Source of the DNA: a virus
Reading direction: 5' to 3' (one strand)
DNA: 32,924 nt
IMG/VR virus record: IMGVR_UViG_3300020421_002088
Location: 1-32,924 of that record
In this document: piece by piece, positions 15,342 through 30,366 of the stretch
Position numbering within the stretch: the stretch's first letter is position 1
How the letters are laid out: the number at the start of each line of letters is the position of its first letter
Notes under the pieces: model-generated
Seen by the model: the letters and a program-made list of their open reading frames with translations, nothing else
Databases searched by the model: none
What the model was told of the DNA's origin: nothing
Made by a program: the position numbers and the translations under genes

Positions 15342-15587
15342 TTATACTATCCAGTTATATATACCCCTCAAAGCTAGTAACAGATAAAACAACTCCATTA
15401 AAGCACGTGGTACGTCTTTATCTTTTATACCCATATATATCCAGATCATGCAACTAAAACAAGCTACTAACCAGCCCATCCATTGTACGGCAGGATTACC
15501 CCCACTTAAAATAAAGGCACCAACCATAGCTAGTACAAAGCCTAGCCATCTCCAACCATCAATCTTATGATAATATCTGATCTTCAC
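15342..15587 (-). CDS. Small three-helix membrane protein
   Basis: GTG start (15585-15587) with CAGGAG upstream, inside the end of the oxygenase gene. The 81 residues hold three hydrophobic segments: [33 protein letters not shown] and a C-terminal [19 protein letters not shown]. The ending is reminiscent of PnuC-type nicotinamide-riboside transporters, which end in a similar aromatic stretch, but the protein is much too short for that. A small cyanophage-type membrane protein of unknown role is the safe call. Confidence 0.8.
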
Positions 15588-16167
15588 TTTCAGACTCCTG
15601 TATCCATGTGGTTAAGATATACTTGTTTGTATTTCCAATTGGTGGATTACCTCTGTGTGTATGAGACCAATCAGCTGGCCATAATAATAATCTATTTTTC
15701 TTTGGTGCAAATCTTTTATTTTGATATAAGAATTCTGTTTCACCTGCTTCGTCAATGTCATTTAAATACAGTTGTGCTACAACTCGTCTATCGTTGTTAG
15801 TACCACCAGTTTCGAAATGCCAATCATGAAATCCACCACCTGGCTTAATACGTTTCATTTTTAGTCCGTCAGCACTCATGCGTGTATTTTTTAATATGCT
15901 AAATTTATTTGTATATATAGGCCAGACAGTTTCCCATAGTACTCTGTAAAACTCTTGTAAAAATACTCCACGAACTTGATGTACTATATGCGGTTCTATA
16001 AACTGTACTTCGTCCATATCTCGTTCATGTCCTGGAACAAAGTCTTTAGTAGATTGTATAAAGCCTGTTTTATCTAGTTCTTCAAAATACTTTATGATAT
16101 CTGTTATATAATTTTCAGGAAGGACGTTATCAAAAATGCCTACAAACCCGTCGAACTTGGTATCCAT
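15565..16167 (-). CDS. 2OG-Fe(II) oxygenase
   Basis: The 200-residue protein has the phage-type oxygenase motif GGGFHDWHFETGG, giving the metal triad His117-x-Glu119 with a distal His in SHTHRGNPP (169/171). Lys182, or a nearby basic residue, is the likely 2-oxoglutarate anchor. The core strands AQLYLNDIDEAGETEF and KNRLLLWPADWSHTH are typical. Substrate unknown: such phage enzymes may hydroxylate proteins, nucleotides or DNA bases. AAGG precedes the ATG; the end overlaps the membrane-protein start by 23 nt. It follows the clamp loader directly. Confidence 0.88.
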   Translation of the reverse strand: MDTKFDGFVGIFDNVLPENYITDIIKYFEELDKTGFIQSTKDFVPGHERDMDEVQFIEPHIVHQVRGVFLQEFYRVLWETVWPIYTNKFSILKNTRMSADGLKMKRIKPGGGFHDWHFETGGTNNDRRVVAQLYLNDIDEAGETEFLYQNKRFAPKKNRLLLWPADWSHTHRGNPPIGNTNKYILTTWIQESESEDQILS

Positions 16168-17082
16168 TTATAACCTTGCTAGTTTAATTAATGTCGCCGC
16201 TAAATTGATCTCTGGATCTACGACTAGTGTGTGATCTACTAGTCCTTGTTTAATTATGATAACTGCCTTGTCCTGCGTTTCTTCGTCACCAAACAGATCA
16301 ATATTATCATATAGCCATCTGTAAACTTCTTCCATCTCTTCTGCTCTAGCACTTGCACAAACAAGTTTACGAGCTTCACTGATCTTACCTGCTTTAAACA
16401 GTTCGACCATTTCAAGTTTCCAGTCAGCTTCATTCTTATCGCTTTCATTGGGTGCAAGTAGTTTACCATCTTGCGAATTCATTTGTACTGTATTAATACA
16501 TTTACGTAAATCAGGATAACTTGCTTTTACATACGTGTCTAGTGTATTCAAGTCTGGAGTAACACCTTCTGCAATAAGTATCTCTGCCACCCTTGCAGTA
16601 AACTCATTCATATCTACTTTAGCAATATGAAAACCTTGACAACGACTGTGCAAAGCAGGAATAATACGGTTGGGGTAATTGCAAGTAAGAATAAACCTTG
16701 AAGTGGTGTGATATTCTTCCATAACGCCACGTAACGCCGCCTGAGCATTAGGGGACAAGTAATCAGCTTCATCAAGTAATACAACTTTAAATGCTCCAAA
16801 TGGTATCATCTGTACAAAGTTAACAATCTTATCTCTAACATCATCAACAGAGTTTGTACGAGATGCGTTAATCTCTAATACATCTAAATCATTAATTTCT
16901 AATTCGTTGAATAGTAACTTTGCAAGTGTAGTCTTACCAATACCTGCGTTACCGGAAAATAACAAGTGTGGAATAGTTTGTTCTTTGATCCACTGTTTGA
17001 CCTGTGCCTTTTGATGTTCATCTCTAAATACGTAACCATCAACAGTCTTAGGACGATACTTTTCTACCCATAGTTCTTTCAT
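16168..17082 (-). CDS. Sliding-clamp loader large subunit, T4 gp44-like
   Basis: The 304-residue AAA+ protein opens with LWVEKYRPKTVDGYVF, typical of clamp-loader ATPases. It has Walker A GNAGIGKT (44-51), Walker B VVLLDEAD (100-107) and the SRC arginine-finger motif (146-148, LHSRCQGF). Length and order match gp44/RFC small subunits. It loads the gp45-like clamp at primer ends during phage replication. A gp62 partner is not recognisable next to it; the 60-residue protein upstream is too small. It overlaps that gene by 4 nt (ATGA). Confidence 0.95.
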   Translation of the reverse strand: MKELWVEKYRPKTVDGYVFRDEHQKAQVKQWIKEQTIPHLLFSGNAGIGKTTLAKLLFNELEINDLDVLEINASRTNSVDDVRDKIVNFVQMIPFGAFKVVLLDEADYLSPNAQAALRGVMEEYHTTSRFILTCNYPNRIIPALHSRCQGFHIAKVDMNEFTARVAEILIAEGVTPDLNTLDTYVKASYPDLRKCINTVQMNSQDGKLLAPNESDKNEADWKLEMVELFKAGKISEARKLVCASARAEEMEEVYRWLYDNIDLFGDEETQDKAVIIIKQGLVDHTLVVDPEINLAATLIKLARL

Positions 17083-17261
17083 TTACCTAAAAACCTCCTC
17101 GCCGCATCAATTGGATTACGTAGTCCGTCATATGTCTTTTCAATAAAGCCTATATGTTTAGTTAGTCTAGCATCAATTGAGTCAATGCTATCCTGAAGTT
17201 TATCAATTTTTTTATTTAATTTCTTGATTTGCTCAAGAACTAATACATCACTTGCGTCCAT
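17079..17261 (-). CDS. 60-residue coiled-coil protein
   Basis: I start at ATG 17259-17261 (MDASDVLVLEQIKKL), with AAAGGA 8 nt upstream, not at the in-frame TTG one codon earlier. Residues 8-45 form heptad-like helix (KKLNKKIDKLQDSIDSIDAR), followed by GLRNPIDAARRFLGK. It overlaps the cytidylyltransferase gene by 14 nt and the clamp loader by 4 nt. Function unknown; position hints at a clamp-loader accessory, unproven. Confidence 0.75.
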   Translation of the reverse strand: MDASDVLVLEQIKKLNKKIDKLQDSIDSIDARLTKHIGFIEKTYDGLRNPIDAARRFLGK

Positions 17262-17661
17262 CAATTATCCTTTGCCTTAAGTTACTACTGCTAAATGAAT
17301 GTTGTCTTTTATTATAGTATATTTCTATACCTTTGTCAACACAAATCTGCTTTCCAGTGAAGTCTTTGGTTTTATATTCTTCACCAATAAATCTTTTATC
17401 AATATTGTAGGTTAAAAGTATGTCTTCTAAGTCCTTTTCAGTTTCATAAGGAATGATTTCATTAACATACTTACATCCTGATAATTGAACATAACGTTCA
17501 AATACACTTTGGATTGGTTTATTTTTTTCGGGTCTATCAATTGAAGGATCTGATTGCAATCCTACTATCATATGTTCACACTTACTACTAGCTTCTTTAA
17601 GCATAGCAACGTGTCCTGTATGAAATAAATCAAATGTACTAAAAGTAATACCTACTGTCAA
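17248..17661 (-). CDS. Glycerol-3-phosphate cytidylyltransferase-like protein (TagD type)
   Basis: The start is TTG 17659-17661 with TAGGAG upstream; it overlaps the cupin stop (TTGA). The 137-residue protein has GITFSTFDLFHTGHVAMLKE with HTGH at 14-17, then RFIGEEYKTKDFTGK and HSFSSSNLRQRI, the standard TagD-type motifs. It should couple CTP to a phosphorylated polyol or sugar to give a CDP-activated group. The adjacent cupin suggests a small envelope- or glycan-related module. Full length. Confidence 0.92.
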   Translation of the reverse strand: MTVGITFSTFDLFHTGHVAMLKEASSKCEHMIVGLQSDPSIDRPEKNKPIQSVFERYVQLSGCKYVNEIIPYETEKDLEDILLTYNIDKRFIGEEYKTKDFTGKQICVDKGIEIYYNKRQHSFSSSNLRQRIIDGRK

Positions 17662-17984
17662 TGTTTTCTCCTACCGTCAAATACGCAAACAAAATAACAA
17701 CCTAAAGGACCTGCATGAACACGATGAAATACTCCATCTTCAATTAATATTACATCACCTTCATTAACATTTACGGTTTTATCATCTAGTTCCATTCTAC
17801 CAGAACCTTTGACAAAGTAATAAACTTCTTCTTGTCCTTCGTGCTTATGTCCGCTAGTTGATTTGGTTGCTTTTAAATCCGTGCTACTTACTACAAGATT
17901 GGTTAGTGTTGTATTATCCTTTACAACATATCTTTCATCTTCTTTGGCAATACTACCACCAATATCTTGTATGGTTAACTTCAT
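17658..17984 (-). CDS. Cupin-fold protein
   Basis: I start at the ATG 17982-17984 (MKLTIQDIGG), which overlaps the stop of the small membrane protein (ATGA); the longer frame runs through that gene and is not needed. The 108 residues contain cupin motif 1, SGHKHEGQEEVYYFVKGSG (His46, His48, Glu in 52-53), and motif 2, GDVILIEDGVFHRVHAG (His87). It is a single-domain metal-binding cupin such as those of sugar isomerases or epimerases. Substrate unknown; partner with the cytidylyltransferase by position. Confidence 0.9.
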   Translation of the reverse strand: MKLTIQDIGGSIAKEDERYVVKDNTTLTNLVVSSTDLKATKSTSGHKHEGQEEVYYFVKGSGRMELDDKTVNVNEGDVILIEDGVFHRVHAGPLGCYFVCVFDGRRKH

Positions 17985-18151
17985 TGTTTTTTGGCACCAC
18001 GTTCCTGTCCAATACCCATCAGTATCAATATCACATACAATATAGGCCAAGCCCACCCTTGTAAAAAGCCAATTATATGCAGTACCATTAATACGATACC
18101 AGTGGCTCCAGTGGTTCCAATACCCTGTAATTCAGTTGTTGGAAGTTTCAT
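17981..18151 (-). CDS. 56-residue membrane protein, unknown function
   Basis: The ATG at 18149-18151 follows TAGGAG and a near-consensus sigma70 promoter; the TGA overlaps the cupin ATG. The sequence starts MKLPTTELQGIGTTGATGI and has one or two hydrophobic segments (IVLMVLHIIGFLQGWAW and PILYVILILMGIG), ending QERGAKKQ. The two helices joined by a short turn give a hairpin topology. Perfect coupling on both sides supports a real gene. As the first gene after a host-type promoter, it may act early at the host membrane; role unknown. Confidence 0.78.
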   Translation of the reverse strand: MKLPTTELQGIGTTGATGIVLMVLHIIGFLQGWAWPILYVILILMGIGQERGAKKQ

Positions 18152-18164
18152 ATAATCTCCTAGT

Positions 18165-18180
18165 TTGTATTATTATACAA
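18165..18180. repeat. Inverted repeat TTGTAT-4 nt-ATACAA across the -10 box
   Basis: A perfect 6-bp-arm inverted repeat covers the -10 element and the predicted start site of the sigma70 promoter. The position is that of a repressor operator; AT-rich composition makes chance possible. Confidence 0.4.
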
Positions 18181-18200
18181 TAAAGATTATTAAAAGTCAA
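18172..18200 (-). promoter_or_regulatory. Near-consensus sigma70 promoter
   Basis: On the minus strand TTGACT (18195-18200) is followed after exactly 17 bp by TATAAT (18172-18177). The -35 box contains the TGA stop of the oxygenase-like gene. The leader would be about 14 nt and contains TAGGAG. This is the only host-type promoter I could find in the window. Confidence 0.75.
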
Positions 18201-18748
18201 GCATATAATCCAGAAAAAAGGAAAGATATACTAAATCTTGGAGTAATCTTATTTGGCTTTAATTCTTTATGTACAGTTCGAGCGGGGAAGGCAATACATC
18301 TACCTTTTTTGAATTCTACTGTTTCGAAAATAGTTTTACCATCTCTATGATAAAATTCCATTCCACTATCACCTTGTAACATATAATAAACTACCCAATT
18401 GGACTTATCAGAATAAACCATCTTACCTGAAGCATCAGTATCGTATGGTTCGTCAAATGCAATTATATCAGGATAATGTTCTTGTGTTGACATAATTGTT
18501 TTGACATTTAATAAGGTTAACAATCCTGCTTTTCCAAACAAAGGAATCTTTGCTTTGATGTCGTGTCTTTTGAAATTAATTGCACACCAAAGGGCTTTTA
18601 TTTCCCAAGGTAAATCGTTTAGGTTTGGCCAATGTGAACTAAATCCTTTTTCACCGAATACTACTGGTTGGTGCGGTAAGGTAGCTTCGCATTGTTCTTG
18701 TAGCCATTCAGGAACAGCATCGTCCATTACTATAATATTATTTGACAA
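18197..18748 (-). CDS. Degenerate 2OG-Fe(II) oxygenase paralog
   Basis: TTG at 18746-18748 follows AAGGAG inside the end of its paralog; the longer upstream extension overlaps that gene and is rejected. The 183-residue protein aligns throughout with the 18738-19334 product (DDAVPEWLQEQCEATLP against DDVIPKWLHQKAVETVP; GDSGMEFYHRDGK against GDSGMNFYNNDSE; ISFLFSG against VGFIFSG). Where the paralog has LHVD, this protein has IAFD (Ala97, Asp99), so the first metal His is lost. The distal His160 and Arg171 remain. It is either inactive, uses another ligand, or acts as a partner subunit. Confidence 0.8.
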   Translation of the reverse strand: MSNNIIVMDDAVPEWLQEQCEATLPHQPVVFGEKGFSSHWPNLNDLPWEIKALWCAINFKRHDIKAKIPLFGKAGLLTLLNVKTIMSTQEHYPDIIAFDEPYDTDASGKMVYSDKSNWVVYYMLQGDSGMEFYHRDGKTIFETVEFKKGRCIAFPARTVHKELKPNKITPRFSISFLFSGLYA

Positions 18749-19334
18749 TTTCTTCTTGCTCCTTTTTAAATATAGGCATGATAACTCCTCTATCTCTAGC
18801 AAACTTAGATGACCTACCACTAAAAATAAATCCTACTGTTACTCTTGGACTTGCTTCTTTAGGCGGTTGTCCTTCATGTATCATTGCACTTGGAAATACT
18901 ATACATCTAGCATCTCCATAATCAACACTATGTTTTAGTTCGCTATCATTATTATAAAAGTTCATTCCACTATCGCCTATAACTGAATAAACCATAGTAT
19001 ATGCCTTTGTATCTCCTTGTGTGTCAACATGAAGACCACCTATATGGTCCTTAGTCGTCAAGTTAACTTGGATCTGGTTAAGCTGTATGTCACCAACATC
19101 GGGATCGATAAGGTGTTTTTGTTCTTCAAATGCCATCCATAGGGCTTGTAATACCCAAGGTGCATCATCTATTTCTTCGTGTTTCCAGGCATCACTAAAG
19201 AACTGATATCCTTGGTCAGGACCTAATCCTCTGTGTCCCCATTTAAGTGGAAGGTAGGGTACAGTTTCTACTGCTTTTTGATGTAGCCATTTTGGTATGA
19301 CATCATCTAATACTTTGATTGTTTCTACGTCCAT
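18738..19334 (-). CDS. 2OG-Fe(II) oxygenase
   Basis: The 198-residue protein shows an oxygenase core with IGGLHVDTQGD (His102-x-Asp104), distal His153 (SAMIHEGQPP) and Arg164 (SPRVTVGFIFSG) as 2-oxoglutarate anchor. A basic C-terminal tail (SSKFARDRGVIMPIFKKEQE) is absent from the neighbouring paralog. The ATG lacks a Shine-Dalgarno sequence; ATTAAATA stands 5 nt upstream. Substrate unknown. The next gene starts within its last codons (11-nt overlap), so the pair is translated together. Confidence 0.85.
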   Translation of the reverse strand: MDVETIKVLDDVIPKWLHQKAVETVPYLPLKWGHRGLGPDQGYQFFSDAWKHEEIDDAPWVLQALWMAFEEQKHLIDPDVGDIQLNQIQVNLTTKDHIGGLHVDTQGDTKAYTMVYSVIGDSGMNFYNNDSELKHSVDYGDARCIVFPSAMIHEGQPPKEASPRVTVGFIFSGRSSKFARDRGVIMPIFKKEQEEIVK

Positions 19335-19358
19335 GACAGTATTTAATCTGCCAGGCTT

Positions 19359-21451: not shown

Positions 21452-22018
21452 TTAACTAAAGACGCCAACGTACTCAGCAAACACAGTTGTTCCACCGTCA
21501 GCAGTCCAAAAATCTAATACCATTGGGTTTACGTTTGAATCTACTACACATGGACTTGGAAAGCCTGGACCATATTTAATTGTTCCACCGCCTGATGTTG
21601 CCCAAGTTACTGTTCTTGCAGTACTGTCACCTAGTGTGTCTAATAACACTAGTCTAATCTTACCTACTTTGTTGCTTGTTGGCCAATCAGCAAATGTAAG
21701 TGTAATTGAGTTACCAATAGTAAATGTTTGATAGTTACCATTTGTAAATGATACGTTTTGTGGACTTGTTACAGTTCCACCTGGATATACTTTTTCAGTG
21801 TTAGCTATTAAGTTTGCTCCGCTAACGTCATTTCCTAGAAAGTTGTTCGCGGCATTTAACTTTGCAGTATCAGTTTGTAATGCTTCGATTTCACTCTTAG
21901 CCGCTGTAAAATTGTTCTTAATAGTGTTGAAGTTATTTCTAAATCCTTGCGAGTCATTATCCTGACCTGCTATAGGAAATGTTGCGTCAACACCTGTACT
22001 ACTAATATTACTTGCCAT
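21452..22018 (-). CDS. Small tail-fibre-like structural protein
   Basis: The 188-residue protein begins with a segment typical of phage fibre proteins (PIAGQDNDSQGFRNNFNTIK then NNFTAAKSEIEALQ), a helical trimerisation-type region. A beta-rich C-terminus follows (FTIGNSITLTFADW, KIRLVLLDTLGDSTARTVTW). The first part is related in pattern to residues 10-35 of the 26465-27169 product. The ATG follows GAGAGGAA and a GATAAATA octamer. Probable late virion protein; exact place in the tail unknown. Confidence 0.82.
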   Translation of the reverse strand: MASNISSTGVDATFPIAGQDNDSQGFRNNFNTIKNNFTAAKSEIEALQTDTAKLNAANNFLGNDVSGANLIANTEKVYPGGTVTSPQNVSFTNGNYQTFTIGNSITLTFADWPTSNKVGKIRLVLLDTLGDSTARTVTWATSGGGTIKYGPGFPSPCVVDSNVNPMVLDFWTADGGTTVFAEYVGVFS

Positions 22019-22040
22019 TTTTGTTCCTCTCTAGTGTATA

Positions 22041-22048
22041 TATTTATC
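22041..22048 (-). promoter_or_regulatory. Late promoter octamer GATAAATA
   Basis: Minus-strand GATAAATA between the 3' end of the large fibre gene and the ATG at 22018; GAGAGGAA in a predicted leader of about 16 nt. Confidence 0.7.
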
Positions 22049-22052
22049 CACG

Positions 22053-25000
22053 TTAAACATTAAAGCTATAATTCCCGAAAGGAATATACTGCTCGTTGCT
22101 GTTTCCTGTTGTATTATCTATGACATATCTGTCAATTTCGAAGTCTAATTGACGGAAATCAAACCCGTTATTCTGTATATTAAGCAGTATTTGGGCACTT
22201 GTACCAGGCTTACAATAGCATAGTGGAATAGCAGTTACATATCCTAGTTCTTCTACTGAATTGGTCTGTGCAGTTGACATCCATAATGGTAAGAAGTTCT
22301 GTTCTGTAGTACCTACTTTACTTAAATTTTCACGCATATTTGTGATGTTACTAATGTATCTGCTTTGGTCATTTGGATCACTGATATTAACGGCAGTACT
22401 TGATACTTTAATAGGTGTACCATCTGGTCTAAATCTAAATGGATCACTTGATGTAGTTGCAATCTGTCCAGCAGTTAGAACTGCACCAGTTCTAGTAGTT
22501 ACTTGAATAATACCATTAGCGTCAATAATTATACTACCACCGTTTCTTGCTAGAACAGATAGATCGTTTCCGAACGCCCTAACAATTACATTTCTACCAA
22601 TTGAGTTTTCAATAGTGAATACTGCCAATCCTGCACCTTCCTTAGATGCATCATCTCTAGTTTCGTATTCAACACTATCAACAGTAATTTTTTTATTACT
22701 TCTAATAGTATCCTTTGTTCTTACTTTTAGTGTACCACTGTTTATATCACTTGGGTCAATTACTTCAACATAAACTACTTCATATATAGTTGTGCTAGTT
22801 CCTGACTTTTGGGCAACGGCTGTTTTGATTGCACCCATTTTAAATCTTTTTCTTTTATGGTTTAATCTAGTTGCCGCGATATAGTTTCTAATTTCTTTTG
22901 TTTCCAATCCAGAGTATACAAGCATCTTAACTTCTTTTTGTAATCCAAATTCTGGGTCATTTGGTCTATAAATTGATCCTGGTGTAAACACGTTAGGGTC
23001 ACCAATGAAGTTGCTGTATGCAGACCTCTGTGTAGCTTTAAGAAGGGGTTTTACGTAGAGGTTACTGTATGTTACGTTGTCTGGATCACTTACTACAATG
23101 TTGAATTCTCTAGTAGTTGCACTAAATCCAAATCTATCTCTAGCTCTTACTGTGAAACTAAATTTTCTGTCAATGCTTGTTGTACCACCGTCCAAACTAA
23201 AATTGTTTGCATCAATAGTTGTTAATCCTAAATCGGTTCCTGTAGCAAATTGTCTTACCTTACCAACTATTTCACCATTATGGTTAAGTTTTAATCCTGG
23301 TGGTAAAGTTCCTGCTGTTACGTCATATAATAATGCTGTATCAGTTACAGTTGTTGTGGCACTAACGGCAAACGTACTAATAAAGTTTGCATTGATGCTA
23401 CCAAGTGCCTCCGCAGTATTCCAAGTAATTGTACTTTCAACTTCTCCTAATACTCTTACTGTAAATGTTTTTTCTTTTTCAGCATATAAACTTTGATCTA
23501 TAAATCTCTGTGCTGAAACTGTAAATTTGTATTCTTTAGTTACCGCAGGCATATAAGGTACACGACCTGCAATCTCACCAGTTGTAACATCTAGTGTCAT
23601 ACCTGGTGGTATTGTACTTGTTGAGTTATCTGGATTAGTTGCTTTTAATAAGTATCTTAATTCTCCTACAAGTGAGTTAGGATCAAACACATCTAAGAAA
23701 ATAGTTACATAGTTGTTTGCTCTTTTGAAACCTAAGTCCGCAGGAGTTAACCACATAGGTGTTCTAATGAACGTGTTGTCCGCAGTAAATATACCTGTAC
23801 CTATTTGCATGATAGTATTATCTGCACGTAGGAAGTCATCACCTACTAAAAATATTTGAAACTTTCTTTTTGTAATTGTATCGCCATCACTTACACTTAC
23901 AGTAAATTCATATGTTCTGTTTAACTTCTTAGGACTCTGTGTCTTAATAGCATAGTCGTACCCTTGCGTATCGTAGTAATAACTTTCAAAACCGTTTGCA
24001 CTTCTCATACCAAAGTCAAACGCATATGAGTCAAACTGTGCCATATCGTAAAATCCATTACCACTTCTTTCATCAAGTGCTAATATAGGATCTACAATAC
24101 CAACTAACTTACCATCTGTGGTTAGCGTTATTCCTGGAGGTAGCGTACCGTCGCCATCACCAATATAATATTCCAAAGTTTGCCCTGTTGGTAAATCTGC
24201 GTCTATGGCTGAAAGTTGAAAGTCTACTACACTACTATCTAAAATGTAAAAACTATTATTAGGTCCTAATGGTAGTTTACCTTCTGCTGTTGTCCATACA
24301 GGAATGTCAGGTCCTTGTATTTCTATCTTAAGTGTTCTATCTCTAACACCATCATTGTTTTTAGCTCTTAAAACAAATTCATATTCTGTATCTCTAGATA
24401 CTTCAAATGGTGTACCTACAACCTTGTTGTCTACCAAACGCATACCTGGTGGAAGTTCTCCACTAATAAGTGTAATTACGTCTGTGTTTAAGTTAATGTC
24501 TGTTACGGAACCTTGCTCTAAAAATATGTTAGGTGCAGATGCTTGAGTATATCCTAAGAACAATCCAATAATGTTCTTCATGTAATCTTCTACACCATGA
24601 CCTGCTGGTGTCTTGTAGTGTGTAACTTGACCTGCAAGGTATGAGTAATAATAAACTCCAGTTACACCATAATATATTCCTCCTGCGTCTGGAATAATAT
24701 TTCCTGTGTATCCTTGTGACTTTGCTACTTCATAAACACTTTCTTGAGCACCTAAGAAACTATAACCAAATGCGTGTGAGCCACCTGCATAAGGAATAGT
24801 TGTATCAGCTGTTCCGTGTATGTTTAAAAACTTTCTTCCTGTTGTTGGAGTCTTTGCAGTATTGTATTCTGCTGTTGTAATTCCAGTTTCACCTGATGGA
24901 ATGTAAAATGTATCATTTCTAAACATAGGGTCAAAGAATTGTGTGCCTATGGTACAGATAACATCTATTGCTGTGTCATCTATTTGTACGTAAGCTCTGT

Positions 25001-25535
25001 TAGCCAATGCCGCACCATTACTAAAACCAACTAGTCTTATTTTAGTGTTATCTACGTTACTAAACAATTTTAGTTGTGTAATTAAATCTTGTAAAAATTC
25101 TATATCTGGTGCTTTTGTATTTTCGTGTGCAACATTCCATTCGTTGTTGTAACCAGTTGGAGCAACAAGAATATGATCACCTAAATAATTTTGCCAACTA
25201 CCTATTTCATTAGTACCATTACCACCAGCACCGTGTAGTAAAATTGCAACAGGAATACGTTTATCATTGAGTGCAGTAATAGTAGGTATTCTGATTGCTA
25301 TTGGATAAGTGTAAGTAACAGAATTACCACCTTGTGTCCAAGTCTTTTCAATGTTTATTACAGTTGTATTTGATATCCTACTTTGTGCAGGAAAGCTGAT
25401 TTCTGTAGTACCAGGGTCAAACCCTGTTCCACTAGATGATCCTGGAGCAATAGGTAATGTGATAGTAGTAGTAACTCTTTCCTGTAGAGTTGCTAACTTA
25501 TATCCTGATTTTTGTGTCCACTGTGGTACTGCCAT
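22053..25535 (-). CDS. Large tail-fibre protein with inserted esterase/depolymerase domain
   Basis: The 1160-residue protein begins MAVPQWTQKSGYKLATLQER. Residues about 85-330 form an alpha/beta hydrolase of the PHB-depolymerase/LpqC-esterase type: ILLHGAGGNG (98-107, oxyanion), GFSNG (170-174, nucleophile Ser172), Asp244 in HGTADTTIPY and His313 in PAGHGVEDY. From about 335 to 860 follow repeated Ig-like (He_PIG) domains, recognised by ISGELPPGMRL, GTLPPGITLTTDGKLVG, STIPPGMTLDVTTG and TAGTLPPGLKLNHNGEIVG. The C-terminal 290 residues are a different, fibre-like region. AAGGAT and a late octamer precede the ATG. It likely binds and hydrolyses a surface ester or polymer during adsorption. Confidence 0.88.
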   Translation of the reverse strand: MAVPQWTQKSGYKLATLQERVTTTITLPIAPGSSSGTGFDPGTTEISFPAQSRISNTTVINIEKTWTQGGNSVTYTYPIAIRIPTITALNDKRIPVAILLHGAGGNGTNEIGSWQNYLGDHILVAPTGYNNEWNVAHENTKAPDIEFLQDLITQLKLFSNVDNTKIRLVGFSNGAALANRAYVQIDDTAIDVICTIGTQFFDPMFRNDTFYIPSGETGITTAEYNTAKTPTTGRKFLNIHGTADTTIPYAGGSHAFGYSFLGAQESVYEVAKSQGYTGNIIPDAGGIYYGVTGVYYYSYLAGQVTHYKTPAGHGVEDYMKNIIGLFLGYTQASAPNIFLEQGSVTDINLNTDVITLISGELPPGMRLVDNKVVGTPFEVSRDTEYEFVLRAKNNDGVRDRTLKIEIQGPDIPVWTTAEGKLPLGPNNSFYILDSSVVDFQLSAIDADLPTGQTLEYYIGDGDGTLPPGITLTTDGKLVGIVDPILALDERSGNGFYDMAQFDSYAFDFGMRSANGFESYYYDTQGYDYAIKTQSPKKLNRTYEFTVSVSDGDTITKRKFQIFLVGDDFLRADNTIMQIGTGIFTADNTFIRTPMWLTPADLGFKRANNYVTIFLDVFDPNSLVGELRYLLKATNPDNSTSTIPPGMTLDVTTGEIAGRVPYMPAVTKEYKFTVSAQRFIDQSLYAEKEKTFTVRVLGEVESTITWNTAEALGSINANFISTFAVSATTTVTDTALLYDVTAGTLPPGLKLNHNGEIVGKVRQFATGTDLGLTTIDANNFSLDGGTTSIDRKFSFTVRARDRFGFSATTREFNIVVSDPDNVTYSNLYVKPLLKATQRSAYSNFIGDPNVFTPGSIYRPNDPEFGLQKEVKMLVYSGLETKEIRNYIAATRLNHKRKRFKMGAIKTAVAQKSGTSTTIYEVVYVEVIDPSDINSGTLKVRTKDTIRSNKKITVDSVEYETRDDASKEGAGLAVFTIENSIGRNVIVRAFGNDLSVLARNGGSIIIDANGIIQVTTRTGAVLTAGQIATTSSDPFRFRPDGTPIKVSSTAVNISDPNDQSRYISNITNMRENLSKVGTTEQNFLPLWMSTAQTNSVEELGYVTAIPLCYCKPGTSAQILLNIQNNGFDFRQLDFEIDRYVIDNTTGNSNEQYIPFGNYSFNV

Positions 25536-25557
25536 ATCAAATCCTTAAACTTTACAG

Positions 25558-25565
25558 TATTTATC
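25558..25565 (-). promoter_or_regulatory. Late promoter octamer GATAAATA
   Basis: Minus-strand GATAAATA in the 44-bp gap before the ATG at 25535, with AAGGAT in a predicted leader of about 16 nt. Confidence 0.7.
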
Positions 25566-25579
25566 GGAATTGATGGCTA

Positions 25580-26455
25580 TTAATATGCTCTTTGTTGTTT
25601 AGTGCTAGGCCCAACAATGTATGGATATACGGGCTGTAAACTAGAATCTACACTAACATGATAACAATATGTACCGTTAACATACTCAGGTGTTTTTTCA
25701 AATCTACCATTGAATTCATCTAATAACCCTGTACCTATTTGATACTCGTGATCGTTAATAAATGTTCCTGCTGTTTTGGCACCGTACAAGTATCCTCTAC
25801 CTGTTGGTTCTGTTGAGTAGTATTGATATGAGCTTGTCATTCTAACTACTACTGATGATGGGTCATTGTAGTCTGAATAGCCATAAGGTCCGTAAATAGG
25901 ATAACCGTCAAAACAATATCCTAAAATCTTACTGTGTCCATCTGCGTGTCTAAAGTGATCTCCGCTGAAGTTACTTCCTGTGTAATACGTAGCGGCCGGT
26001 GAAGCACTTGTTACCATTGCTGTACTCCAACCTGCTGTTGATTCACTTGAACCTGTTGGTAAGTTTAAAAACTGCCCTGACATATAGTGATATTGTCCAT
26101 CAGTTTCTGGCCAACCACCTGCGTCATCTCCGCCGTAGTTTGTTCTAAATTGAACTGCGTTATATTCGAATCCTGTTCCTGGTGCATCTGCTGTTGGATC
26201 TAATCCTGGAGGAACTTGTCCTACTCCTGCACTTGGACTAAAGAAAACAACACCATTGTTAAAGATACCTAATGGAGTAAGTGAAGTCACTAACTGCGGA
26301 TTACTTGTATTTTCTCCACCTCTGTAAGTAAATGAATAATTATATGATTGTCCAGATACAACATTTGCACTTGGTGAAAAAGCATTTTGTCCGAATGGCT
26401 TTCCAAATGCCGCCGGATTAGGTAAACCGTTTGATGTAATTGTTAGTGTTGCCAT
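25580..26455 (-). CDS. YHYH-domain tail-associated protein
   Basis: The 291-residue protein has features of the YHYH family: QYHYMSG, DGHSKILGYCFDGYPIYGPY, LDEFNGRFEKTPEYVNGTYC and a terminal PYIVG. One copy of the motif reads YCYHV. The function of this domain is unknown; metal binding through the His residues is possible. The N-terminus (NGLPNPAAFGKPFGQNAF) and the Gly/Ser/Asn-rich composition fit a virion surface protein. GGAT precedes the ATG. It lies between two fibre genes and probably shares the transcript starting at 27187. Confidence 0.82.
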   Translation of the reverse strand: MATLTITSNGLPNPAAFGKPFGQNAFSPSANVVSGQSYNYSFTYRGGENTSNPQLVTSLTPLGIFNNGVVFFSPSAGVGQVPPGLDPTADAPGTGFEYNAVQFRTNYGGDDAGGWPETDGQYHYMSGQFLNLPTGSSESTAGWSTAMVTSASPAATYYTGSNFSGDHFRHADGHSKILGYCFDGYPIYGPYGYSDYNDPSSVVVRMTSSYQYYSTEPTGRGYLYGAKTAGTFINDHEYQIGTGLLDEFNGRFEKTPEYVNGTYCYHVSVDSSLQPVYPYIVGPSTKQQRAY

Positions 26456-27186: not shown

Positions 27187-27194
27187 TATTTATC
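27187..27194 (-). promoter_or_regulatory. Late promoter octamer GATAAATA
   Basis: Minus-strand GATAAATA touching the last base of the subtilase gene stop, before the ATG at 27169. Predicted leader about 11 nt containing AGGAAGAG. Confidence 0.68.
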
Positions 27195-28822
27195 TATTGA
27201 TCGTTCCCGTTAGTGCCTCTAAATCTAATAGGATTTGGACTGCTGTAAGGCCAATGTGCTACCCTATTAGGAGCACCGTATAAACGTGGATAGCTGTTGC
27301 TGTAACTGAAGCTTTCTGCTGTACCACTGTCATATAGTGTTGCGTTAGCATTATTTTTTAAGAAGTCTTTAAATTGTTGTGCAGTTCCACCTGGATTTGC
27401 TTGTAACCATAATGCACCCATTCCTGTTATTTGCGGAGCCGCCATGCTAGTTCCACCTATCTTAGCCATGTAGTGTGTTGAACTTCCTGGATAAAGTTGT
27501 TTAGATCCGTATATACTTGTTTGGCTAGTTGCACTAGAAATATCATCACCTGCGGCAGTAATATCTATTCTTGGTCCACGTTCACTGTCAACTCTTACTT
27601 TTTCATCACTACCATATTGTGTTGTATCCATGTTTGCTACCCATAACGTATCTGTGCTATGTGGTGAACTTGGTCTGTTATAATACACAGGTTGTCCTGC
27701 GGCAACACCTTGTCCGTTATGATATTGATTAATTGTGTAATAGCTGTTATAAATGTCACTGCCGTATTCACCTGATCCTGCTACTCCATACGCACAAGGG
27801 TGATATGCGTTACCGGCCGCCTTAACACAGATAATACCTGCATCAGTTAACATTTCTTGTTCTGTGTCTGCAAAACTATTTTGTGTAGGATGTTTTGAAT
27901 TAACCATTCCATAGTTTACAAACGCACTTGAAAAACTTGCTGGTGTAATGTTTTGATCTACACCTTTAAAAAAGATTGATTGTAATTGTGCACCAGCATT
28001 GTTGCTGTAATACCAACTGTATCCCCAACTCTGATTAACGATAGTAGGACGTCTAAATCCTGTGTTAGGATCAATTGGTTTTCTTAAATGCCATTCTCTG
28101 ATAACATCATAGATATCGTTCATATTCATGGCCGCACTTCCACCAAACAATCTTACTGAAAATAATTGTGCATTCTTGGCCCAACCGTATGTCTTACCTG
28201 CGGCAATACCACAGCAATGACTACCATGAGCACCTGCTCTGTTTGAATCATTAGTTATATTTGTGTAATGGTTAGCAGGCATTGTTCCAGATACACCTGA
28301 TGCCGCATACCAATCTATTTGTTGGAACCTTGTAGTACCATTGTAGTCTTCCCACTCAGGATGTCCTGTAGGATCAACACCGTCATCTTGTATAACAATG
28401 TCTACGCCTGTTCCATCTAGTGTGTAAGTATAATCTCCTGAGAACGTGCTACTTGCCGCTTGATTGGCTTGCCACTCTTGAAATAAGTGTCTATACAATC
28501 CCCAGTTCTTATCAGCTTGGTTATCTGTAATTGTTCTTTGGAATTGATCATTCTGTACTGCAAAAGGCTCTGCCGCCTGATCAGTGCTTGAAGGTTCTAC
28601 ATCTTTAATTCTAGGATCGTTTTTAAGTTTAACTGCTTCTTCTGGTTCAAGCATATAACAAGTAATTCTATTGTTAGTTGCTTTTGCGTGTGAAACATCA
28701 CAAGTTCTATCAGGAATGATATTAGAATCAACACTAGAATCACCTGACGTGTCTTTTTGTAGTAACTGATCTATTTCAGCTACATCGGTTCCCTTGTTTG
28801 TTATAACTCTAAATTCTTCCAT
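27194..28822 (-). CDS. Subtilisin-like (S8) protease, catalytic residues intact
   Basis: The 542-residue protein has a short prodomain-like segment (about 1-80; YMLEPEEAVKLKNDPRIKDV resembles the I9 inhibitor end). The catalytic domain follows, with Asp146 (DIVIQDDGVD), His202 (GAHGSHCCGIAAG), Asn338 (KAAGNAYHP) and Ser459 (GGTSMAAPQITG). No signal peptide is present, so it acts in the cytoplasm or within the virion. It overlaps its paralog's stop (TAATG). The C-terminal 50 residues continue with fibre-like Ser/Asn composition. Possible roles: processing of fibre proteins or proteolysis at the cell surface. Confidence 0.93.
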   Translation of the reverse strand: MEEFRVITNKGTDVAEIDQLLQKDTSGDSSVDSNIIPDRTCDVSHAKATNNRITCYMLEPEEAVKLKNDPRIKDVEPSSTDQAAEPFAVQNDQFQRTITDNQADKNWGLYRHLFQEWQANQAASSTFSGDYTYTLDGTGVDIVIQDDGVDPTGHPEWEDYNGTTRFQQIDWYAASGVSGTMPANHYTNITNDSNRAGAHGSHCCGIAAGKTYGWAKNAQLFSVRLFGGSAAMNMNDIYDVIREWHLRKPIDPNTGFRRPTIVNQSWGYSWYYSNNAGAQLQSIFFKGVDQNITPASFSSAFVNYGMVNSKHPTQNSFADTEQEMLTDAGIICVKAAGNAYHPCAYGVAGSGEYGSDIYNSYYTINQYHNGQGVAAGQPVYYNRPSSPHSTDTLWVANMDTTQYGSDEKVRVDSERGPRIDITAAGDDISSATSQTSIYGSKQLYPGSSTHYMAKIGGTSMAAPQITGMGALWLQANPGGTAQQFKDFLKNNANATLYDSGTAESFSYSNSYPRLYGAPNRVAHWPYSSPNPIRFRGTNGNDQ

Positions 28823-30366
28823 TAGTTATTACCACTCATTTTAAATCCTGACGGTCCTGTTGTATCTAAACCTTTTTTCTTACTAAACGTTTTGCTTTTA
28901 TTTAAGTTACCAAGATAAGCAATTCTGTTTGATGTTGCATCTGGACTCATTAAATTTCTGTTGTTGTTAAAGAACGTAGATGGATTACTTTCATCTGTTG
29001 AACCTTGATATAGTTGTCCTTTAAGACTGTTAGTATGCCACCAGTTACGTAATTGTGCAGGAGTAAATCCTGGATTTAATTGTAATACTAAACAGCTCAT
29101 TCCTGCTACATTAGGAGTACTCATTGATGTTCCTGTTAAATTATATATTGCTGATGAGCTTGTATTATATGCACTAACAATATTTGTTCCTGCCGCATAA
29201 ACATCAACTCTTGGTCCTTTATCACTTCCTGATTGACAAGCTTCTGAACTTGAATATAATGCACTATCTAAGTTACCACATACAATAGTATGAGGACCTA
29301 TGTTACCTGCACCTCTATTGTAGTATATAGGATTACCTGCTGTAATTCCTCCTGAGTTTACACTTCTTGTAATATAGTTGTTATAATCTACATCTCCTGA
29401 GAAACATAATTTTTGTGCTTGGTTACCTGCACTCTTATGATAGTGTACACCTTCGTCTTGCATTTCTTCTACTTCTGCCATCAAGTTATAAATCTGTGCA
29501 TTGAATCTATTTGAACTATCTCCAATCATTCCATACTGTGAACTTTTAACAGAACCAACACTTGATCCTCTAAAGTTAATATCTGTAATGTTTGAGAAGT
29601 ATGATTTGTAACCCCAACTAGCACTTACCACAGTTGGTCTTTTAAATCCTGTGATTGGATTAATAGTTTTTGCTTTGTGAAATTCTTTGATAGCATCAAA
29701 CCAATAGCTTGAGTTTACAGTATTCATATCCAAACAAAATATGTTTGCGTTCTTGGCCCAACCATATGTTTTACCAACTGCCGTTCCGGCACAGTGAGTA
29801 GCATGATAGCTTGAACCTGATGAACTGCTATAATCTAATGTTGCTATTGACCCACAGTTAGGAAGTGTATTCCATTGAAACTGTTGTAGACGACTGTTGC
29901 CATCTTTGTCTTGCCATTCTTGATGATCGTATCTAAATTTTGTTTCTTGGTGTATGTAATCAATACCACTACCATCTAAATGATAATCATATGATCCACC
30001 TAAATCATTTCCTGTGCTAGATCCCCATTCATTTACTGTTGCTGAGTGTCTTTTAAATCCCCAGTTGTCTCTTGAAGTAGATGTGCTGTTTCTAATGAAC
30101 GTTCCTTCTTGCTCATAGTCTAGCCATTCATCGTCCCAAACCAAAGGTTCGTTGACTCCACCTACTCTTGAATCTTTTAATAATTCTGTTGCTTCTTCAT
30201 CTGTAAGAGCAACCTCTAGCATACGTTTACTGATTGGTCTAGTGTTTACGTTATCGACTACTCTATCTGGAATGTCAGTAATAGATGTTGATGTGTTCAG
30301 TTCATTTAAGAACTGTTCCTTATCTACTCCCTTTTTTAATGAAACGACGTAATGTTTCTCTGACAT
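28822..30366 (-). CDS. Subtilisin-like (S8) protease paralog with altered catalytic Asp
   Basis: The 514-residue protein is a tandem paralog of the 27194-28822 product, sharing prodomain (LTDEEATELLKDSRVGGV), fold and the segment GKTYGWAKNA. His191 (YHATHCAG), Asn315 (KSAGNQ) and Ser414 (GTSMSTPNVAG) are kept. Where the paralog has QDDG, this protein has QETK (140-143), so the Asp of the triad is Glu141 and the following Gly is Lys. Activity is doubtful. It could be an inactive structural partner. AGGAGT precedes the ATG. Confidence 0.92.
   Translation of the reverse strand: MSEKHYVVSLKKGVDKEQFLNELNTSTSITDIPDRVVDNVNTRPISKRMLEVALTDEEATELLKDSRVGGVNEPLVWDDEWLDYEQEGTFIRNSTSTSRDNWGFKRHSATVNEWGSSTGNDLGGSYDYHLDGSGIDYIHQETKFRYDHQEWQDKDGNSRLQQFQWNTLPNCGSIATLDYSSSSGSSYHATHCAGTAVGKTYGWAKNANIFCLDMNTVNSSYWFDAIKEFHKAKTINPITGFKRPTVVSASWGYKSYFSNITDINFRGSSVGSVKSSQYGMIGDSSNRFNAQIYNLMAEVEEMQDEGVHYHKSAGNQAQKLCFSGDVDYNNYITRSVNSGGITAGNPIYYNRGAGNIGPHTIVCGNLDSALYSSSEACQSGSDKGPRVDVYAAGTNIVSAYNTSSSAIYNLTGTSMSTPNVAGMSCLVLQLNPGFTPAQLRNWWHTNSLKGQLYQGSTDESNPSTFFNNNRNLMSPDATSNRIAYLGNLNKSKTFSKKKGLDTTGPSGFKMSGNN

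Follow-up and report, generated by a model that had tools for sequence, protein, structure and literature searches.

A tandem pair of 2OG oxygenase-like genes in marine T4-like phages, one of which carries a conserved alanine in place of the HxD histidine

Background

Pseudo-partners of 2OG oxygenases are already known, and so is the conserved loss of catalytic residues within the fold, a case in point being JARID2, in which such substitutions go together with an essential non-catalytic role (PMC11241480). Fungal meroterpenoid synthesis employs the heterodimeric Fe(II)/2OG oxygenases TlxI-TlxJ and TlxA-TlxC (PMC12141560, PMC11880133); TlxI is devoid of the 2OG-binding Arg, and in its presence TlxJ reaches an efficiency of 1.63 instead of 0.02 per min per uM (PMC12141560). 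In the prolyl hydroxylases OGFOD1, Tpa1 and Ofd1, a catalytic double-stranded beta-helix (DSBH) is followed by a diverged, metal-free DSBH, thought to have arisen by duplication (PMC4396695). As for the iron ligands themselves, the H679A variant of human AspH has a kcat of about 0.18 vs 0.24-0.31 per second, while its Km for 2OG is up about 100-fold (PMC8252765).

Here, I describe two overlapping genes, A and B, in a stretch of 32,924 nucleotides (IMG/VR record IMGVR_UViG_3300020421_002088; hereafter the window), which is part of the genome of an uncultured, T4-like marine phage. 2OG oxygenase genes without an assigned function are numerous in marine phages. No report of a natural HxD-to-AxD member of the superfamily, or of a phage pseudo-oxygenase, was found in the open-licence literature.

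Results

The window encodes the clamp loader gp44, ThyX, MazG, a GroES-like protein and a ferredoxin, together with baseplate and fibre genes. In related viral contigs the order is constant, namely fibre - p188 - ... - GroES - MazG - A - partner - optional cargo - gp44, and the oxygenase-like pair is always found at one site, between MazG and gp44. A variable cargo site (window 15565-18056, and its equivalent in L003-L072) fills the interval separating the pair from gp44 and a short stretch past it; genes for a cupin, a cytidylyltransferase and canonical P4H-like proteins have been gained and lost among contigs in the MazG-gp44 segment, and in L065 a P4H gene sits between A and a third paralog, M. 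The clamp loader gene (window 16168-17082, minus strand) is nearest to those of PA5oct-like Pseudomonas jumbo phages (56%) and not to those of cyanophages. An assignment to cyanophages by way of psbA was discarded, no psbA being present in eight related records, one of them of 200 kb.

The two genes overlap and are homologous, with the coordinates and the contrasting motifs (LHVD in A, IAFD in B) given by the original prediction, and its residue numbers for B (Ala97, His91) fit a protein of 183 aa started at TTG, in which the other motif residues are Asp99, His160 and Arg171. The relevant features are:

18738 to 19334, minus strand: gene A, small 2OG-Fe(II) oxygenase-like protein of 198 aa, HxD...H...R intact
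19023 to 19031, minus strand: HxD codons of A (His102-Val103-Asp104)
18876 to 18878, minus strand: distal His153 of A
18843 to 18845, minus strand: Arg164 of A, predicted to bind 2OG
18197 to 18748, minus strand: gene B, diverged paralog of 183 aa, TTG start, AxD replacing HxD
18452 to 18460, minus strand: AxD codons of B (Ala97 GCA, Phe98, Asp99 GAC), at the HxD position
18476 to 18478, minus strand: His91 of B (CAT), ancestral
18269 to 18271, minus strand: distal His160 of B, retained
18236 to 18238, minus strand: Arg171 of B, retained, predicted to bind 2OG
18524 to 18544, minus strand: B-specific insert PLFGKAG
18410 to 18454, minus strand: B-specific segment DEPYDTDASGKMVYS following the AxD site
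18738 to 18748, minus strand: 11-base overlap of the end of A and the start of B
18759 to 18767, minus strand: Shine-Dalgarno-like AAAAAGGAG, within the A codons for FKKEQ

The HxD of A stands in the context ...DHIGGLHVD..., and the AF2 model of the protein (pLDDT 88) is a DSBH with VIA Z 14-15.5 to ALKBH3, AlkB and PHD2. Cyanophage rows were left out of the input to structure prediction. Besides the modelled fold, the HxD is present in 29/29 A proteins and the distal His and the Arg in 28/28. With the Pfam model 2OG-FeII_Oxy_3 (PF13640), A scores 17.4 bits and B 17.0 bits, both short of the curated whole-protein cut-off of 27 bits; the sequences being too divergent for this model, membership in the superfamily rests on fold and motif. 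A presumably hydroxylates some substrate, for which the products of the nearby fibre genes at 21452-26455 are only candidates. Most A homologs (including those of L003, L007, L011, L013 and L031) bear an insert of 60-70 aa in the loop past the GDSGMxF strand; it is missing from the window A and from that of L009, and L030 has a short form.

B is a paralog of A (29% identity over 188 columns, E 7e-30), and a profile of B matches the profile of A plus M with a probability of 100% (E 3.5e-41); an independent origin of the two genes, which would have undone the original prediction, is thereby set aside. In this profile alignment, made separately, Ala97 (context ...EHYPDIIAFD...) pairs with His102 and Asp99 with Asp104, and a one-residue insertion stands directly before them. 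The AF2 model of B (pLDDT 68) is also a DSBH and reaches Z about 15 against PHD2 and similar folds (165 residues, rmsd 3.2), although its AxD region is weak (block pLDDT about 52-63). B thus has the fold, the distal His and the 2OG-binding Arg of the superfamily (11/11 for each residue), yet not the complete 2-His-1-carboxylate iron triad.

At the junction, AAAAAGGAG lies 10 bases upstream of the TTG start of B, and the same sequence is found at A-B, A-M and M-B junctions in several relatives. Translation of A and B is likely to be coupled.

The related viral contigs yielded 58 distinct proteins, which fall into the groups A, B and M. At the first position of the motif, His is present in 29/29 A and 17/17 M proteins (46/46 together) and Ala in all 11 distinct B proteins, so Ala97, for which the original prediction had suggested a conservation check, is fixed in B. 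A sequencing or annotation artefact was rejected, AxD being common to 11 distinct B proteins from 13 other contigs and the window. The Asp of HxD/AxD, the distal His and the Arg are kept in all A, M and B proteins wherever the sequence reaches, and in B each of Asp99, His160 and Arg171 is found in 11/11; the original prediction had rightly noted that the distal His and Arg remain.

The idea that a single ligand has been lost with the rest conserved did not hold. A and M taken together show 44 columns with a conservation of 95% or more; 22 of these are retained by every B protein, 6 are retained in part and 16 are changed in every B, the GHRGLG motif of A and M being among the positions so altered. 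B has also gained two conserved inserts, PLFGKAG and DEPYDxDxxGKMVYS. Because about half of the A/M-fixed columns are kept anyway, the retention of the Asp, His and Arg is near background and says little on the function of B.

Use of a halide had also been considered for B. The 2OG halogenases lose the Asp of the HxD; in the SyrB2 type it is replaced by Ala or Gly with both His kept. In B it is the His that is lost, Asp99 being kept in 11/11, and halide use finds no support in the sequence.

The reading frame of B is open in all 11 distinct copies, and about half of its columns are invariant. Pairwise dN/dS by the Nei-Gojobori method, in which some dS values are near saturation, is 0.08-0.31 for B except for one near-identical pair, comparable to about 0.04-0.27 for A. 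Values well below 1 indicate that B is under purifying selection and hence maintained, as had been proposed.

In a maximum-likelihood tree, A and B are each set apart by a branch with strong support (100/97 and 100/100), and M by one with weak support (69/81). B joins the M side of the tree through a stem 1.34 changes per column long, its exact sister being unsure since long branches meet there (a warning given by the program). The pair is homologous as claimed, but not the product of a recent A-to-B duplication, which is ruled out by the branching of B with M.

The architectures by contig are 30 A-M, 2 A-M-B and 12 A-B including the window, with one further A cut by the contig end. Downstream of each complete A come M, B or both, and B has A upstream in 14/14 B-bearing contigs, in most of which it replaces M at the position of M; no M was found elsewhere in the whole A-B records, though all of these are fragments. 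The simplest reading of the tree and the architectures would be a duplication of M, or of an M-like gene, followed by divergence to B and by loss of M.

The window A is nearest to that of L009 and the window B to those of L003 and L006, from which it follows that the two genes have been reassorted by recombination; this is evidence against an interface that has closely co-evolved within one particular A-B combination. The A-B stretch (window 18151-19350) is mosaic, with about 75-88% identity to L007/L008 against 90-99% for most flanking stretches; the 3' half of A is most similar to L009, and there is a break near the A/B junction.

No close relative of A, M or B was found in cultured phages, where A has matches of only 24-28% to cyanophages, M matches one phage (two records) at 21%, and B has no match. 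Searches of cellular genomes gave no relative, nor did a sequence search of solved structures below E 0.05. Among phage families, A, M and B all match PHROG 274 best, of which the cyanophage proteins resemble A in having HxD...H...R, all four that were read keeping the HxD His; they differ in being only about 20-28% identical and in not occurring in A-M or A-B pairs. These members (L037:4001-4537, L038:3007-3549, L039:2992-3561 and L040:2992-3510) are labelled 'DNA endonuclease V' or hypothetical. The endonuclease label seems to be wrong, as they look like 2OG oxygenases.

Discussion

The reading to which I give roughly an even chance is that B is, in the manner of TlxI, a partner of A whose own catalysis is lost or impaired. 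It is supported by the fixed AxD, by purifying selection, by the constant adjacency of A and B, by AAAAAGGAG and the start overlap, and by the DSBH fold; moreover, A/M-fixed residues have been lost beyond the His, and TlxI/TlxJ and OGFOD1/Tpa1 offer precedents. Against it, Asp99, His160 and Arg171 are kept in all B proteins, which a pure scaffold need not do, A and B recombine, and AspH H679A is active despite the equivalent loss of a His.

At the MazG - pair - gp44 site, phages of this lineage carry an A-M pair whose HxD...H...R sites are both intact; B, a branch of the M side, gave up the HxD His together with the GHRGLG motif on its long stem and now occupies the place of M in most B-bearing contigs. 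On the favoured reading, B alone would turn over substrate poorly or not at all; it might be kept as a partner or regulator that, like TlxI with TlxJ, stabilises A or shapes the pocket for its substrate, and coupled translation would provide A and B in matched amounts.

The step from a lost ligand to a non-catalytic protein, as made in the original prediction, is not a safe one, since AspH H679A keeps a near wild-type kcat. B may accordingly be thought of as a still active 2OG oxygenase that holds iron through Asp99 and His160 only, with water or another group as third ligand and at the high 2OG of the cell, and its Asp99, His160 and Arg171 are indeed conserved in 11/11; AspH, too, has two protein ligands only, and its H679A variant keeps its kcat (PMC8252765). 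I consider this unlikely, however, as GHRGLG and several other A/M-fixed residues are lost in B, its cofactor residues, three in number, are kept at about the background rate, and no natural enzyme with a His-to-Ala change in the HxD was found in the open-licence literature. The proposal that B is a naturally evolved active oxygenase, or the active half of an A-B enzyme, binding iron by one Asp and one His, a ligand set that is not known to be used naturally, is rather more doubtful still.

B could instead have an independent function in binding, for example in sensing 2OG or a nucleotide or in inhibiting a factor of the host, and would then have nothing to do with the activity of A beyond being co-transcribed with it. 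The conserved B-specific inserts PLFGKAG and DEPYDxDxxGKMVYS would suit such a role, as would the independent recombination of A and B and the nature of the MazG-gp44 segment as a cargo site. Yet no B without an upstream A occurs in the 14 B-bearing contigs, and the starts overlap with the Shine-Dalgarno-like sequence inside A, so that an independent role appears improbable.

It is far harder to believe that His91, shifted by the one-residue insertion, replaces the lost ligand and re-wires B into a 2-His-1-Asp site. His91 is invariant in B (11/11) and only six residues before Ala97, the insertion adjoins the site, and the model of B is poor there (block pLDDT about 52-63); but the same His is found in 29/29 A and 16/17 M proteins beside an intact HxD, where it probably has another role, which on the sequence evidence argues against a B-specific replacement ligand, and the profile alignment sets Ala97 opposite the HxD His. 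The refuting alignment that the original prediction had allowed for, with His91 as the ligand, therefore does not materialise. A decaying pseudogene, to which the long stem and the lost active-site residues might have pointed, was rejected on the purifying selection, the frame being open in 11/11 copies with about half of its columns invariant and dN/dS well below 1.

Related phages apparently preserve the steps of the takeover, namely A-M, A-M-B and A-B, and natural sequences thus allow a test of how much the loss of the catalytic His matters. The outcome would reveal either the conversion of a phage enzyme into a partner or a natural Asp-His iron site.

A second tandem pair of paralogs, two subtilases (Peptidase_S8; E 2e-24 and 3e-20), is encoded in the window at 27194-28822 and 28822-30366, minus strand; they are 32% identical. 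Where the first has QDDG, the motif of the catalytic Asp, the second reads QETK, although its His and its Ser motif GTSM are intact. This pair may thus be another of active and inactive members.

Comparison with known systems

JARID2 shares with B the conserved substitution of catalytic residues, but it is a large multi-domain chromatin protein and not itself the partner in a gene pair. OGFOD1, Tpa1 and Ofd1 differ in that both domains belong to one fused eukaryotic polypeptide, the second being without any metal site.

In AspH, H679A removes the same His that B has lost and leaves an iron site with fewer than three protein ligands; the natural AspH site, however, has both His but no carboxylate, whereas B keeps the carboxylate and one His. 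The nearest case to a site of Asp and His only is that of engineered AspH variants with a single protein ligand.

TlxI-TlxJ and A-B are alike in being paralogs in one cluster of which one is short of cofactor-site residues, and A and B are, like the Tlx genes, neighbouring paralogs one of which is without a complete cofactor site; in Tlx that subunit stays required. TlxI has dispensed with the 2OG-binding Arg and a lid loop; in B the Arg is still there, and it is the HxD His that is gone. Lastly, Tlx is a fungal heterodimer, while A-B would be a putative heterodimer of phage proteins of about 190 aa.
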